Below, piece by piece: positions 9,204 to 13,617 of a stretch of 64,000 bases of DNA. Under the pieces are notes generated by a model. It was not told the origin of the DNA. It ran no database searches and saw only the letters and a list, made by a program, of their open reading frames with translations. A program made the position numbers and the translations under genes. This DNA is from Synergistaceae bacterium (GTDB taxonomy: Bacteria > Synergistota > Synergistia > Synergistales > Aminobacteriaceae): the NCBI GenBank assembly GCA_018436595.1, contig JAHDLC010000001.1, positions 1-64,000 of the forward strand. The letters run 5' to 3'. Every line of letters begins with the position of its first letter. The first letter of the stretch is position 1.

Positions 9204-10271
9204 ATGGACAAGGAAAAGCTGCAGCATTTCCGGGAGAAGATCGACACTCTGGACAAACAGATCGCCGGACTCATCGCCGAGAGGGCGGAGACCGCCAGGG
9301 AGATCGGCAGGGCCAAGGGGGGCGCTCCCGTGTACGATCCCGTCAGGGAAAACCAGGTCATCGGGAGGGTGCTTCTCTCGTGCCCCGGCCTGGACCCGGA
9401 GGCGGTGACCAGAATTTATCGGGAATTAATCTCTCTGTGCCGGGGAGTGCAGCACCGTCCGAAGGCGGCCTTCCTCGGGCCGGAGGGGTCTTTCTCCCAC
9501 GAGGGAGTGTTCGCGGCCTTCGGCGGGACAGTGGATCCCGTGCCGTGCCCCTCCTTCCCCGACGTCTTTGCCGCGGTGGACAAGGGACTGGCCGACTGGG
9601 GCGTGGTTCCTGCGGAAAACTCGCTGGAGGGAACGGTTCTCCCCACCATGGACGCCTTTGCCTCGGCGGCGAAGGATATAGTAATACATAATGAAGTATC
9701 TATTAAGATTGATCACGTGCTCGCCTCGGAGGGAACAGCTCCGGAGGACATCCGGGAAGTTCTTTCCCACCCCCAGGCTCTGGGCCAGTGCAGGGAATGG
9801 CTCCGGGCGAACCTGCCCCGGGCGGAGCAGGTTCCCGTGGGCAGCACGAGCGCGGCGGCGGCGGCGTGCGCCGGACGCCCCGAGCGGGCAGCCGTCTGCA
9901 GCGCCCTGGCCGCGGAGCGGTGCGGACTGTCTGTTCTCGCTGAAAAAATCCAGGACCGGGGAAGCAACAGGACCCGTTTCTGGGTGGTGGGGCGGGGAAC
10001 ACCCCGGAGGGGGGAGCGGAACAAGACCTCGTTCCTGTTCAACGTGGAGCACAAGCCGGGGCGGTTGTTCTACGCCCTGGAGCCCCTCTACGAAAACGGC
10101 CTGAACCTGACCCACATCCAGTCCAGGCCCCTTTCCGGGAGCCCCTTCGAGTACTATTTCTTCATCGACGTGGAAGGGTTCCTTGAGGATGAGCCGGTAC
10201 GGAAGGCTCTCGATACCATGAGGGAGCGGACGGTTTTCCTGCGGCTGCTGGGCTCCTATCCCTGCCGGTGA
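9204..10271 (+). CDS. pheA: Bifunctional chorismate mutase/prephenate dehydratase (P-protein)
   Basis: A 355-residue enzyme converting chorismate to phenylpyruvate. Residues 1 to about 80 are an AroQ chorismate mutase helix bundle (LREKID-type start, RAETAREIG). Residues 88 to about 270 are the dehydratase, with FLGPEGSFSHEG, PAENSLEGTV, LSHPQAL-QC and NRTRFWVV. The rest is an ACT domain (HKPGRLFYAL, THIQSRP) for phenylalanine feedback. The start has GGAGGGAG upstream. Codons at 9676-9713 are a striking run of A/T-ending codons in an otherwise GC-rich gene. The 3' end overlaps aroK convergently by 110 bases. Confidence 0.93.
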   Translation: MDKEKLQHFREKIDTLDKQIAGLIAERAETAREIGRAKGGAPVYDPVRENQVIGRVLLSCPGLDPEAVTRIYRELISLCRGVQHRPKAAFLGPEGSFSHEGVFAAFGGTVDPVPCPSFPDVFAAVDKGLADWGVVPAENSLEGTVLPTMDAFASAAKDIVIHNEVSIKIDHVLASEGTAPEDIREVLSHPQALGQCREWLRANLPRAEQVPVGSTSAAAAACAGRPERAAVCSALAAERCGLSVLAEKIQDRGSNRTRFWVVGRGTPRRGERNKTSFLFNVEHKPGRLFYALEPLYENGLNLTHIQSRPLSGSPFEYYFFIDVEGFLEDEPVRKALDTMRERTVFLRLLGSYPCR

Positions 10272-10833
10272 TTCCGGGGAAGGGCGATTCCACGGACCAC
10301 AGCACCGCCGCCGTGCCGTAGAGGTCTTCCAGTATCCTGTCGGTCACCGACGAAACGGGGAATTCGTCGGTGGCCACCCTGATGTGGCAGTGGGAGTAGG
10401 CAGGGCGGCGCTTGATCATGAGGGCCCTAACGTTTCCGCCGTCCAGCAGGGGGCGGGCGCCTTTCTGCTTCTCGGCCCGGGAGAGCACCGTTTCAGGCCG
10501 GACGTCCAGGATAACGAGCTTCGCGCGGGAGAGGACCATGCCCCGGAGTTCCTCGTTCACCAGGGCGCCTCCGCCGAGGGAGACCACCTGGCGGCTTCCC
10601 TCGAGGGCGCCGGCCACGGCGGCGAATTCGTATCTCCGGAAGGCGGGTTCGCCCAGGATGGAGAAGATCTCCGGAACGGTCATCCCTGCCCGCTCCTCGA
10701 TCACCCTGTCCGTGTCGGTGAAGGTCCATCCGAGCCTCCGGGCGAGTTCGCTTCCCACGCTTGTTTTTCCCGAGCACATGAACCCGCCGATGAAAATGTT
10801 GTCCCGTCCAGTGTCATGAAGGCATGCAGTCAT
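10162..10833 (-). CDS. aroK: Shikimate kinase with long C-terminal tail
   Basis: This enzyme phosphorylates shikimate with ATP. The P-loop is GGFMCSGKTSVG near residues 16-27, with the Mg/shikimate DTD motif (FTDTDRVIEER) and SLGGGALV following; the lid region has KGARPLLDGG. The family usually ends near residue 170-180, while this frame has 223 residues. The last 37 codons are read antisense over the ACT-domain end of pheA and are Pro/Ser/Arg-rich, so they may be fortuitous read-on or a real extension. The start overlaps the aroC stop by 20 bases, indicating coupling in aroA-aroC-aroK. Confidence 0.85.
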   Translation of the reverse strand: MTACLHDTGRDNIFIGGFMCSGKTSVGSELARRLGWTFTDTDRVIEERAGMTVPEIFSILGEPAFRRYEFAAVAGALEGSRQVVSLGGGALVNEELRGMVLSRAKLVILDVRPETVLSRAEKQKGARPLLDGGNVRALMIKRRPAYSHCHIRVATDEFPVSSVTDRILEDLYGTAAVLWSVESPFPGITGRDRSPAAAGKPSAPSWYREPSVPAHPQGTLPRR

Positions 10834-11998
10834 GGAGATTCCACCTTTCAGCGTGTTTTCTGTAAGCCTCGAACCGTTCCTTCAGGTCCTGCATCCGGTC
10901 GCTTCCGAACTGCTCCGCAGCCATGGAGCCCACGATCCATGCCGTCATGGCCTCGGCCACCACGCAGGCCGCCGGGACGGCGCACACGTCGCTCCGTTCA
11001 CTGTGGGCCGCCGACGGTCTCCCCGAAACCGTGTCGAAGGAGAGCAGTCCCTTCCTCATGGTGGGGATGGGCTTCATGGCCGCCCGGATGAAAATTTCCT
11101 GCCCGGTGCTCATGCCGCCTTCGATGCCCCCCGCGTGGTTCGTCTTCCTGGTCCAATGCCCGTCCTCCACGAAAATGGGGTCGTGGACATCCCGCCCGGG
11201 GAGACCGGCGCTGCGGAACCCGTCGCCGACTTCCATTCCCTTGACTGCGGGGATGGCCATGAGGGCTCCGGCGAGGCGTCCGTCCAGCCTGCCGTCCCAT
11301 TCGGTGAAGGAGCCTATGCCTGCCGGAAGGCCGGTGACGGAGACCACGAAGGTTCCCCCGAGGCTGGTTTCCTCTTCCGCTGCGGCGGTGATGCGGGCTT
11401 TCAGGGCGGGCTCGTCCTCCTCCCGGGCGACGCCGAGTTCTGAGAGGGCCGCCCGCCGCCATTCATCGTCGCCCGCCGGAAGGGAAGCTGCCACGCCGCC
11501 GATGGACTCCACGGCGCTGCGGACGGTGACGCCCAGTTCCTTCAGAACGAGGGCCGCCAACGCTCCGGCGAGGGTCCGGGGGGCGGTGGTGCGGGCGCTT
11601 GCCCGTTCCAGGATGTTGCGCATGTTCTCCACGCCGAACTTGATGCTGCCGGGGAGATCGGCGTGGCCAGGCCTGGGGGCCGTGACGGCCTTTTCCCTGT
11701 CGGCGGCGGGGGAGATGCTCCAGGGGTTCATCACGCCGTCCCAGTGCTCCCATTCCGCGTTGTCTACGGAGATACCCACGGGACCGCCCGTGGTGAGTCC
11801 GTTCCGGATTCCTCCCCAGAGAGTGAGTTCATCCCGCTCCACGTTCTTTCTGCCACCCCTGCCGAATCCGCGCCTCCTCCGGGCCATGACGCCGGAAAGG
11901 TCGTCCCGGGAGATGGAAAGCCCTGCGGGAAGCCCGTCCACTACCACGAGAAGTCCCCTGCTGTGGGACTCTCCGCTGGTGAGGAATCTCCAGGCCAT
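10814..11998 (-). CDS. aroC: Chorismate synthase
   Basis: A 394-residue FMN-dependent enzyme making chorismate from EPSP. Signature stretches are FLTSGESHSRG at the N-terminus, RRRRGFGRGGR, RPGHADLPG, and TNHAGGIEGGMSTG in the second half. The start at 11998 is chosen because the family begins right at the W-R-F-L-TSGESH motif; a GTG at 12010 is possible but would overlap aroA. It sits between aroA (2 bases away) and aroK (overlapping). Confidence 0.93.
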   Translation of the reverse strand: MAWRFLTSGESHSRGLLVVVDGLPAGLSISRDDLSGVMARRRRGFGRGGRKNVERDELTLWGGIRNGLTTGGPVGISVDNAEWEHWDGVMNPWSISPAADREKAVTAPRPGHADLPGSIKFGVENMRNILERASARTTAPRTLAGALAALVLKELGVTVRSAVESIGGVAASLPAGDDEWRRAALSELGVAREEDEPALKARITAAAEEETSLGGTFVVSVTGLPAGIGSFTEWDGRLDGRLAGALMAIPAVKGMEVGDGFRSAGLPGRDVHDPIFVEDGHWTRKTNHAGGIEGGMSTGQEIFIRAAMKPIPTMRKGLLSFDTVSGRPSAAHSERSDVCAVPAACVVAEAMTAWIVGSMAAEQFGSDRMQDLKERFEAYRKHAERWNLHDCMPS

Positions 11999-12000
11999 GG

Positions 12001-13287
12001 TCAGATGCACCCCCCGGTGAGCCGGTCAAGAGTGGAGAAGAATCCCGGGTAGGAGATGGCCGCGCACTCCGGATCCTCGATGTCCACTGGGCTGTCGGCG
12101 GCGAGAGCCGCCACGGCGAGGGCCATGGCCACCCGGTGGTCGCCGGAGGCTGAGACCCTTCCGCCCGAGAGCCTGGAAGGCCCTGTGATCCTCCATCCGT
12201 CCTCGAGTTCGGTCACCTTCGCTCCCAGGGCCGAGAGTCCTTTGGCCACCGCCACGATCCGGTCGCTCTCCTTGAAGCGAAGCTCCATGGCGTCCCGGAT
12301 CTCCGTGGTACCCTCCGCAAGGGCCGCCGCCACGGCGAGGATCGGGAGTTCGTCGATGAGCCGGGGGATCTCGGCGCCTGAAACTTCCGTCGCCCGGAGT
12401 CTGCTGGAATGGACGGTGATGGTGCCGGCGGGTTCGCCGCCCCAGAGTCCCGACCGCTCCACGGAGAAGGCCAGCCCCATGCGCTCGAGAACACGGAGAA
12501 GGCCTGTCCGGGTGGGGTTCAGCCCCACGCCGGGAAGGGAGATGGACGAATCGGGGAGGACGGCCGCCGCAACGATCCAGAAGGCGGCGGAGGAGAAGTC
12601 GCCGGGGATGGTCCATTCCCCGCCTCTGAGGGGTTTTGAGGGTGCCATGGTGATGGAGTGTCCGTCGATGTAGAGGGGGATTCCGAGGTGGGCGAGCATC
12701 CGCTCCGTGTGGTCCCTGGAGGCGAGGGGTTCGATGACGGTGGTGGGCTCGTCGGAGGAGAGGCCTGCGAGGAGAAGGGCTGTCTTGACCTGGGCGCTCG
12801 CCGTTTCGAGGACGTGGGTGGCTCCCCGGAGGCGCTTCCCGGTCACTTCCAGGGGGAGGGAGGCTCCGCCTTCGGGACCGTCGATGGTTGCTCCCACGGA
12901 CTGGAGGGGCTTCACGATGCGGAGCATGGGCCGTTTCGACAGACTGGCATCCCCCGTAATGGTGGCCCTGACGCCGGGTTTTCCCGCCAGGAGGCCGCAG
13001 AGGGTCCGGGCCGTCGTGCCCGAATTGCCCGCATCCAGCACCGAGGAGGGAGAGGACAGCCCCGAAGGAGCGGAGACGGAGAGGGTCGTTCCCTTCCGGT
13101 GGATGTCCGCTCCCGCCTTTTCGAGGCAGGAGAGGGTGGACGCGCAGTCCGCCCCGTCGGAGAAATTGTGCGCCGTAATCCCGTCCACGGACACCGCCCC
13201 GAGCAGCGCCGCCCTGTGGGATATGGACTTGTCGCCCGGGAGTGTGACCGTTCCCGTAATCTTTTTCGCCGGATGGATTCTCTTCAT
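12001..13287 (-). CDS. aroA: 3-phosphoshikimate 1-carboxyvinyltransferase (EPSP synthase)
   Basis: A 428-residue two-domain enzyme joining shikimate 3-phosphate and PEP. It shows PGDKSISHRAALLG near the N-terminus, LDAGNSGTTARTLCG, the RLRATEVSGAEIPRLIDELP catalytic stretch, and GDHRVAMALAVAAL near the end. The ATG at 13287 is preferred, with AGGGG about ten bases upstream; a GTG at 13296 sits on top of that site. It is the first structural gene after the Phe/Tyr leader and its terminator, so transcription of aroA-aroC-aroK should depend on that attenuator. Confidence 0.93.
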   Translation of the reverse strand: MKRIHPAKKITGTVTLPGDKSISHRAALLGAVSVDGITAHNFSDGADCASTLSCLEKAGADIHRKGTTLSVSAPSGLSSPSSVLDAGNSGTTARTLCGLLAGKPGVRATITGDASLSKRPMLRIVKPLQSVGATIDGPEGGASLPLEVTGKRLRGATHVLETASAQVKTALLLAGLSSDEPTTVIEPLASRDHTERMLAHLGIPLYIDGHSITMAPSKPLRGGEWTIPGDFSSAAFWIVAAAVLPDSSISLPGVGLNPTRTGLLRVLERMGLAFSVERSGLWGGEPAGTITVHSSRLRATEVSGAEIPRLIDELPILAVAAALAEGTTEIRDAMELRFKESDRIVAVAKGLSALGAKVTELEDGWRITGPSRLSGGRVSASGDHRVAMALAVAALAADSPVDIEDPECAAISYPGFFSTLDRLTGGCI

Positions 13288-13321
13288 TGCCTGCACGCCC
13301 CTTTTTGTGTGGTGTGAAAAT

Positions 13322-13359
13322 AAAAAAGACCGGATCTCGGCTGGAAACCGGATCCGGTC
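13322..13359 (-). terminator. Attenuator terminator of the aroA-aroC-aroK operon
   Basis: A 9-bp stem GACCGGATC/GATCCGGTC (13351-13359 with 13328-13336) extends inward with CGG/CCG and is followed on the minus strand by six T residues (13327-13322). It lies between the leader-peptide stop (13420) and aroA. Confidence 0.88.
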
Positions 13360-13464
13360 TTTGCTGTTCTTTCTTTTCCCCCCTCGGGGGGCGGTCGTTG
13401 TGCCTGTGCTGCTGACCCCTTATCCCCCGAAGCTTTGAGAAGCAAGCCGTCGATCGGTTTCCAG
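13341..13464 (-). promoter_or_regulatory. Predicted antiterminator pairing in the aro leader
   Basis: The RNA copy of 13452-13464, inside the leader-peptide codons just past the tyrosine run, is complementary to the RNA copy of 13341-13354, the loop and 5' stem edge of the terminator. It makes 13 pairs with one bulged base. The two structures exclude each other. The distance from the Tyr codons (about 20-30 bases) leaves the upstream strand free when a ribosome stalls there and masked when it reads on to the stop. Confidence 0.7.
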
Positions 13465-13554
13465 AACAGGACAGACCAGGGGATAATAATAATATCCCTG
13501 GTCGCAGCTAAACGCGAATTCAAACACGAAGGTTGCGTTTATCCTGGAAATCAT
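13420..13554 (-). CDS. aro operon leader peptide (Phe/Tyr-rich)
   Basis: A 44-codon peptide starts with ATG at 13554, with AAAGGAG about 8 bases upstream. It begins MISRINATFVFEFAF: four phenylalanines in seven residues. Then SCDQG is followed by four consecutive TAT tyrosine codons (13484-13495). The Tyr run lies in the loop of a local RNA hairpin (13474-13481 with 13496-13503, GACCAGGG/CCCTGGTC), a likely pause structure. The peptide stops about 60 bases before the terminator stem. Its composition implies that both Phe-tRNA and Tyr-tRNA shortage raise aroACK transcription. A shifted frame over the same DNA reads IIII but has no ribosome-binding site. Confidence 0.85.
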   Translation of the reverse strand: MISRINATFVFEFAFSCDQGYYYYPLVCPVLETDRRLASQSFGG

Positions 13555-13588
13555 CGGTATGCTTCTCCTTTCCCCGAAAGTTTCGTGC

Positions 13589-13617
13589 AAGATACAGCTT
13601 TTTGTCCGCCTTGTCAA
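13589..13617 (-). promoter_or_regulatory. Promoter of the aro leader and operon
   Basis: On the minus strand a perfect TTGACA (13617-13612) is followed after 17 bases by TATCTT (13594-13589), so transcription begins near 13582, just before the leader ribosome-binding site. This is the same geometry as the ilv promoter. Confidence 0.75.

Follow-up and report, generated by a model that had tools for sequence, protein, structure and literature searches.

The window, by which we mean the entire 64,000-nucleotide stretch of Synergistaceae DNA analyzed here, carries aroA, aroC, and aroK on its minus strand, with pheA (chorismate mutase/prephenate dehydratase) convergent to them. The sequence upstream of aroA contains a promoter, a short open reading frame rich in Phe and Tyr codons, and an intrinsic terminator. 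The genes and leader features, given in window coordinates, are as follows.

10162–10833, minus strand: aroK, shikimate kinase (best matches are shikimate kinase models, scoring under their strict cut-offs)
10814–12010, minus strand: aroC, chorismate synthase (gene-family call)
12001–13287, minus strand: aroA, 3-phosphoshikimate 1-carboxyvinyltransferase (TIGR01356, 380 bits)
13589–13617, minus strand: sigma-70-type promoter, TTGACA (13617–13612), 17 nt, TATCTT (13594–13589)
13540–13571, minus strand: strand A, comprising the Shine-Dalgarno sequence, start, and first codons; can pair with strand B
13420–13554, minus strand: leader ORF of 44 codons, ATG 13554–13552, stop 13422–13420, Shine-Dalgarno AAGGAG
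13510–13530, minus strand: Phe control codons, TTC GTG TTT GAA TTC GCG TTT (Phe at codons 9, 11, 13, and 15)
13474–13503, minus strand: hairpin H2, GACCAGGGATA-TTATTAT-TATCCCCTGGTC, whose loop holds the Tyr run
13483–13494, minus strand: Tyr control codons, four TAT (codons 21–24; three to five in relatives)
13444–13464, minus strand: strand B, 5' strand of the antiterminator, CTGGAAACCGATCGACGGCTT; retained in L007, where the reading frame differs
13378–13391, minus strand: local CCCCCCGAGGGGGG hairpin between the leader stop and the terminator, seen by eye
13341–13362, minus strand: strand C, 5' arm and loop of the terminator and partner of the antiterminator, used in pairing tests against strand B
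13322–13362, minus strand: intrinsic terminator (C:D; hairpin 13362–13325) followed by T6 (13327–13322)

The aroA gene probably starts at the ATG at 13287, which is conserved and well spaced, and not at the GTG at 13296. The 3' ends of aroK and the convergent pheA overlap by 110 bases (window 10162–10271), and these genes also overlap in genomes G001 and G002. A MAG of the order Synergistales has an AroA 79% identical to the window's, from which the organism is placed in that order.

An earlier note on this DNA had described the promoter, the 44-codon leader with its Phe and Tyr codons, the hairpin with Tyr codons in the loop, a 13-pair antiterminator, and a terminator with six T, and each of these elements was confirmed in the minus-strand sequence. 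The promoter matches consensus at 10 of 12 positions, CCCCTTGACA and a similar –10 element also occur in relatives, and the transcript is expected to start near 13582. The encoded peptide, MISRINATFVFEFAFSCDQGYYYYPLVCPVLETDRRLASQSFGG, has four Phe within seven codons. Thirteen pairs with a one-base bulge join CTGGAAACCGATC (13464–13452) to GATCCGGTTTCCAG (13354–13341), and because this duplex extends via ACGGCU to the terminator foot, the antiterminator uses up the whole 5' arm of the terminator. Strand B begins 18 nt past the last Tyr codon, and a stalled ribosome would leave this antiterminator strand free. In the default fold of the leader, strand B is paired with the Shine-Dalgarno/start region, itself a third competing strand; strand A, by pairing with strand B, may act as an anti-antiterminator and would also mask the leader's own start. 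A local GC hairpin resembling CCCCCCGAGGGGGG is present in several relatives and is possibly a pause site.

The leader exceeds chance expectation both as a reading frame and as an RNA. Two short frames in the real window reach eight Phe/Tyr in 16 codons, one of them the aroA leader, and after dinucleotide shuffling of the window, repeated 60 times, no frame with at least eight appeared. The folding z-score of the leader RNA was –5.0, a value matched by none of 200 shuffles. With Rfam, no family reached its gathering score on the window, T-box and amino-acid leaders included, and a search of seven loci at a relaxed E-value returned nothing credible. Comparison of the leader DNA with plasmid records, and of the hairpin pattern with viral contigs, produced no match.

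Recurrence and alternative pairing in relatives

Judged by sequence comparison, recurrence in relatives is decisively the strongest evidence that this putative leader is genuine. A peptide-profile search found it in eight of 83 genomes of the same family, the window's own included, in three genera; a further match in G094, at 17.5 bits, was weak and was taken as chance. Every examined genome of the family with a close aroA has the leader (G062 included), and all eight have the order leader-aroA-aroC-aroK with pheA convergent. The earlier note had staked its reading on conservation of the Phe/Tyr codons, and they are conserved before aroA in the seven other genomes: across the eight genomes and three genera, three or four Phe are kept, together with three to five consecutive Tyr codons. 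Phe codons alternate synonymously between TTC and TTT, and the Tyr run grows and shrinks by whole codons, with TAC variants. One genus has Cys at codon 9, Phe at codon 10, and Tyr at codon 11, and L006 has Tyr at Phe-11.

The leader of L007 is informative for strand B. In this leader, one nucleotide is deleted past the Tyr run, which shifts the frame, and TGGAAACCG and ACGGCT are unchanged downstream; the antiterminator DNA is kept across the frameshift, and strand B is therefore kept as RNA. Comparison of L007 with its relatives in this way separates two kinds of selection, on codons upstream and on RNA pairing downstream.

Three sets of tests bear on the alternative structures. First, pairing of strands B and C was stronger than in dinucleotide shuffles of B (z ≤ –2) in 26 of 27 leaders, all but L156. 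In an alignment of 21 sequences, 86% of B:C cells were paired, with 28 two-sided changes, and neither figure was reached in any of 500 shuffles; these counts are lowered by F163 and F168, which fall out of register in this alignment (A3). When the partner strand was slid by one to three columns as a control, pairing was only 20–58%. Second, the foot of the terminator (C:D) was 98.4% paired, again reached in none of 500 shuffles, so both alternative structures proposed in the earlier note, antiterminator and terminator, covary. Hairpin H2, with 90.9% of its cells paired, shows covariation of its own. Third, A:B pairing had z-scores of –1.7 to –4.4 in seven of eight aroA leaders and 0.1 in L005; it is strong in L001 and weaker in several aroF leaders.

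The aroF leader family and the tryptophan codon

The genome from which the window comes has a second attenuator before its DAHP synthase operon, aroF-aroB, with a leader and terminator of its own (GGFFQFAFTGGLWLYCATG). This and three further leaders outside the window are listed here.

L130:984–1230 (G000:C27): attenuator homologous to the one in the window; precedes aroF-aroB and contains Phe, Trp, and Tyr codons
L226 (G062:C58:134444–134528): third copy type, before aroE (gene family confirmed); peptide core FSGFSFS..RWYY
L227 (G061:C17:5152–5235): third copy type, before an apparent aroE (called from similarity of the first residues); peptide core FSGFSFS..RWYY
L193:5330–5377 (G000:C45): trpDCFBA operon preceded by an NWWW leader, MIRNTLSQNWWWRAK; no trpE or trpG before trpDCFBA

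The aroF-aroB leader recurs in the two genera that are better sampled, where it contains as many as three Tyr. Other sampled families have a homologous leader type before aroF-tyrA-aroA, YYRFTDGQWRYYASG, in which Tyr and Phe codons are joined by one Trp codon. The order-wide core of the aroF leaders, FTDGQWRYYASG, contains Tyr, Phe, and one Trp codon, and these leaders keep Tyr at the position of the Tyr run and have more Tyr upstream. The control regions of the aroA and aroF leaders can be aligned. Hairpin H2 has a homologue in the aroF leaders, a Trp/Tyr hairpin whose stem contains the Trp codon and whose loop contains the Tyr codons. At the corresponding position, aroF leaders of most families have CAG TGG (Gln-Trp) and the aroA copy has CAG GGA or CAG GGT (Gln-Gly).

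A covariance model of the control region, H2, and strand B (R1), built from 22 leaders that include the window's (74.5 bits), matched 39 of 183 genomes of the order, or 38 in ten families without the weak match in G038 (27.6 bits), matches that are partly by construction because many of the same genomes supplied training sequences. Matched genomes outside the training set include G108, G125, G173, G174, G179, and G181. Most matched genomes have one copy; there are two in the g1 genomes that have the pathway and in most g9 genomes, and three in G062. Leaders L143, L148, and L149, from other genera of the family, are different aromatic-rich leaders (for example, AYFSNYFRFTYYWGKA) that precede a more distant aroF, have terminators of their own, and are unmatched by R1.

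By these alignments, the aroA leader is not isolated and is best described as a copy derived from the aroF leader found throughout the order, which contains codons for all three aromatic amino acids. We infer that a Gly codon replaced the Trp codon, in a lineage without a detectable chorismate-to-anthranilate step. The window's genome, estimated to be 100% complete, has trpD and trpC and, by reading of ORFs, trpF, trpB, and trpA, and a family search of it found no protein with the Chorismate_bind domain of TrpE/PabB. The same search found none in seven of the eight genomes with an aroA leader, the exception, G062, being large and 8% contaminated; all eight have trpC. Elsewhere in the order, most of the sampled genomes have both trpC and a Chorismate_bind protein. 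With no detectable Chorismate_bind enzyme, chorismate therefore seems to feed Phe and Tyr only and, if so, the amino acids it supplies match exactly the pair that the aroA leader reads. The association between the Trp codon and trpE represents one clade, not independent evidence, and has exceptions each way: G062, and G048, which is without both trp genes yet keeps Trp in its leader. The aroF leader of the genomes with an aroA leader keeps its Trp codon. Two genomes of the same genus, G003 and G004 (93–95% complete), are without close aroA, aroF, trpC, Chorismate_bind, and leaders, and are perhaps aromatic auxotrophs.

These comparisons suggest a Synergistales attenuator regulon made by copying one leader: the aroF copy would sense Phe, Tyr, and Trp, the copy at aroA-aroC-aroK would sense Phe and Tyr, and another would stand before aroE. 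The codons of each copy would have been retuned to the remaining products of the pathway, with loss of the Trp codon from the aroA copy in the absence of trpE. We offer this scenario tentatively and rate its chances a little below even.

Proposed attenuation mechanism and competing readings

The region has an ORF with a Shine-Dalgarno sequence and clustered codons for pathway products, a terminator before the first structural gene, and a mutually exclusive antiterminator. On the strength of its sequence and pairing, the leader is very probably a classical ribosome-mediated transcription attenuator that senses charged tRNA-Phe and tRNA-Tyr and controls aroA-aroC-aroK. When Phe or Tyr is short, a translating ribosome would slow within codons 9–24, leaving strand B (13464–13444) free to pair with strand C and allowing readthrough. 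With both amino acids plentiful, the ribosome would cross B to the stop at 13420, covering B, which would then be captured by the Shine-Dalgarno/start strand A as the terminator (13362–13322) forms. Translation of the leader, stalling felt at each codon block, and the size of the response are what we infer for this mechanism, and Phe and Tyr would each truly be sensed.

Folding with a modeled ribosome is consistent in direction with this scheme. Equilibrium folds of the full transcript almost always contain the terminator and do not discriminate between stall positions; the switch must therefore be kinetic, and a kinetic decision is usual for attenuators. In a model that includes only the ribosome footprint, in transcripts in which strand D has yet to be made, the mean P(B:C) over 26 leaders was 0.39 for stalls at aromatic codons versus 0.06 at late codons; the window's own leader showed no discrimination (0.26 versus 0.23). 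When RNA 5' of the ribosome was also barred from pairing, P(B:C) was 0.84 at aromatic codons versus 0.00 at late codons, the latter value being built in because strand B itself is then barred. For the window's leader, stalls at codons 9–13 and 22–24 are expected under this barred model to antiterminate well, and stalls at codons 15–21 poorly (0.14).

The competing readings differ in what they make of the aromatic codons. The attenuator may in practice answer to Phe alone, or chiefly to a single amino acid, with the Tyr run kept for the hairpin or by descent. We regard this as unlikely, although the Tyr codons do lie within a strong hairpin with its own covariation, and the AroR leader of Corynebacterium glutamicum, which reads Phe-Tyr-Phe, is described as responding to limitation of Phe but not of Tyr (PMC11802643); the Tyr codon of AroR is without effect, and Tyr sensing in the aroA leader may therefore also be weak. 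Against a purely structural role, any loop sequence would serve if the hairpin alone mattered, and the run of three to five consecutive Tyr codons changes by whole codons and includes TAC variants. The order-wide aroF leaders, moreover, keep Tyr at this position and add more upstream.

Control could alternatively depend on whether the leader is translated at all, for example under a general shortage of amino acids or ribosomes, with A:B hiding the Shine-Dalgarno sequence. The A:B pairing covers both this sequence and the start codon in the most stable default fold, but A:B is unsupported in some leaders and conservation of the aromatic codons is left unexplained, and we consider control of this kind improbable. 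That the ORF encodes a conserved small protein with a function of its own, and not a disposable leader peptide, is more doubtful still: peptides across the family are 44–98% identical to the window's, but this conservation coincides with paired RNA, the number of Tyr varies, and L007 reads the C-terminal half in another frame with the DNA kept. An ordinary terminator beside a chance ORF, each common enough in itself, has next to no probability, contradicted as it is by the chance statistics, the conservation, the covariation of alternative pairings, and the aroF and aroE paralogues.

Relation to known attenuators

Ribosome-mediated attenuation, as proposed for the aroA leader, is a mechanism of a long-known textbook class. 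The E. coli pheL, pheM, and trpL leaders have, like the aroA leader, competing strands, control codons, and a T-run terminator, but each reads one amino acid and precedes terminal-branch or synthetase genes. One leader can serve several amino acids, as in the E. coli ilv and thr attenuators, which involve other amino acids and unrelated sequences. Leader-peptide attenuators have usually been described one at a time, mostly in Proteobacteria and Actinobacteria. If the copying scenario is true, order-wide paralogues with differing codon sets would permit a direct test of codon content against the amino acids read and of whether leaders, like genes, undergo copying and retuning. The leaders would also bear on regulation of aromatic genes in bacteria that have trpDCFBA but no detectable trpE.

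Attenuation of pheA, pheST, and trp is covered in a review (PMC11802643), and the earlier note's remark that pheA lacks such a leader here is consistent with our scan for aromatic-rich short ORFs. The same note knew of no description of a Phe/Tyr leader on a common-pathway gene, a view that does not hold given AroR (PMC11802643) and the candidates of Stav et al., 2019 (PMC6429828), as these sources present them. Our literature search on leaders with Phe and Tyr codons and on Synergistetes attenuators gave nothing beyond these two and the uORFC-13-1 motif. A search for a leader with all three aromatic amino acids, for paralogous copies on several aro operons, or for a copy at aroA found no report, which is weak evidence.

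Three described systems come closest. In the AroR leader of the C. glutamicum aroF operon (Neshat et al., 2014), Phe limitation matters and Tyr limitation does not, according to the review's account (PMC11802643). As there described, AroR resembles the aroA leader in placing Phe and Tyr codons ahead of a gene of the common pathway and in the proposed ribosome-mediated attenuation of transcription; it differs in having Phe-Tyr-Phe only and in belonging to another phylum and another gene. The uORFC-13-1 motif of Acholeplasma aroF shares a uORF, a structure, and a terminator before aroF, but its available description gives at least one Phe codon, does not mention Tyr or Trp, and places it in one genus and environmental sequences (PMC8632094). 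Finally, the Fig. 6 legend of Stav et al., 2019 lists two candidate uORFs at shikimate genes that encode Phe and Tyr (PMC6429828). The available text leaves genome and gene unspecified and does not mention Trp, aroA, or copies. These candidates are, like the aroA leader, short Phe/Tyr ORFs before shikimate-metabolism genes, and because the five genomes of that study include a Synergistetes genome, Thermovirga lienii (PMC6429828), one of them may be a member of the aroF leader family.
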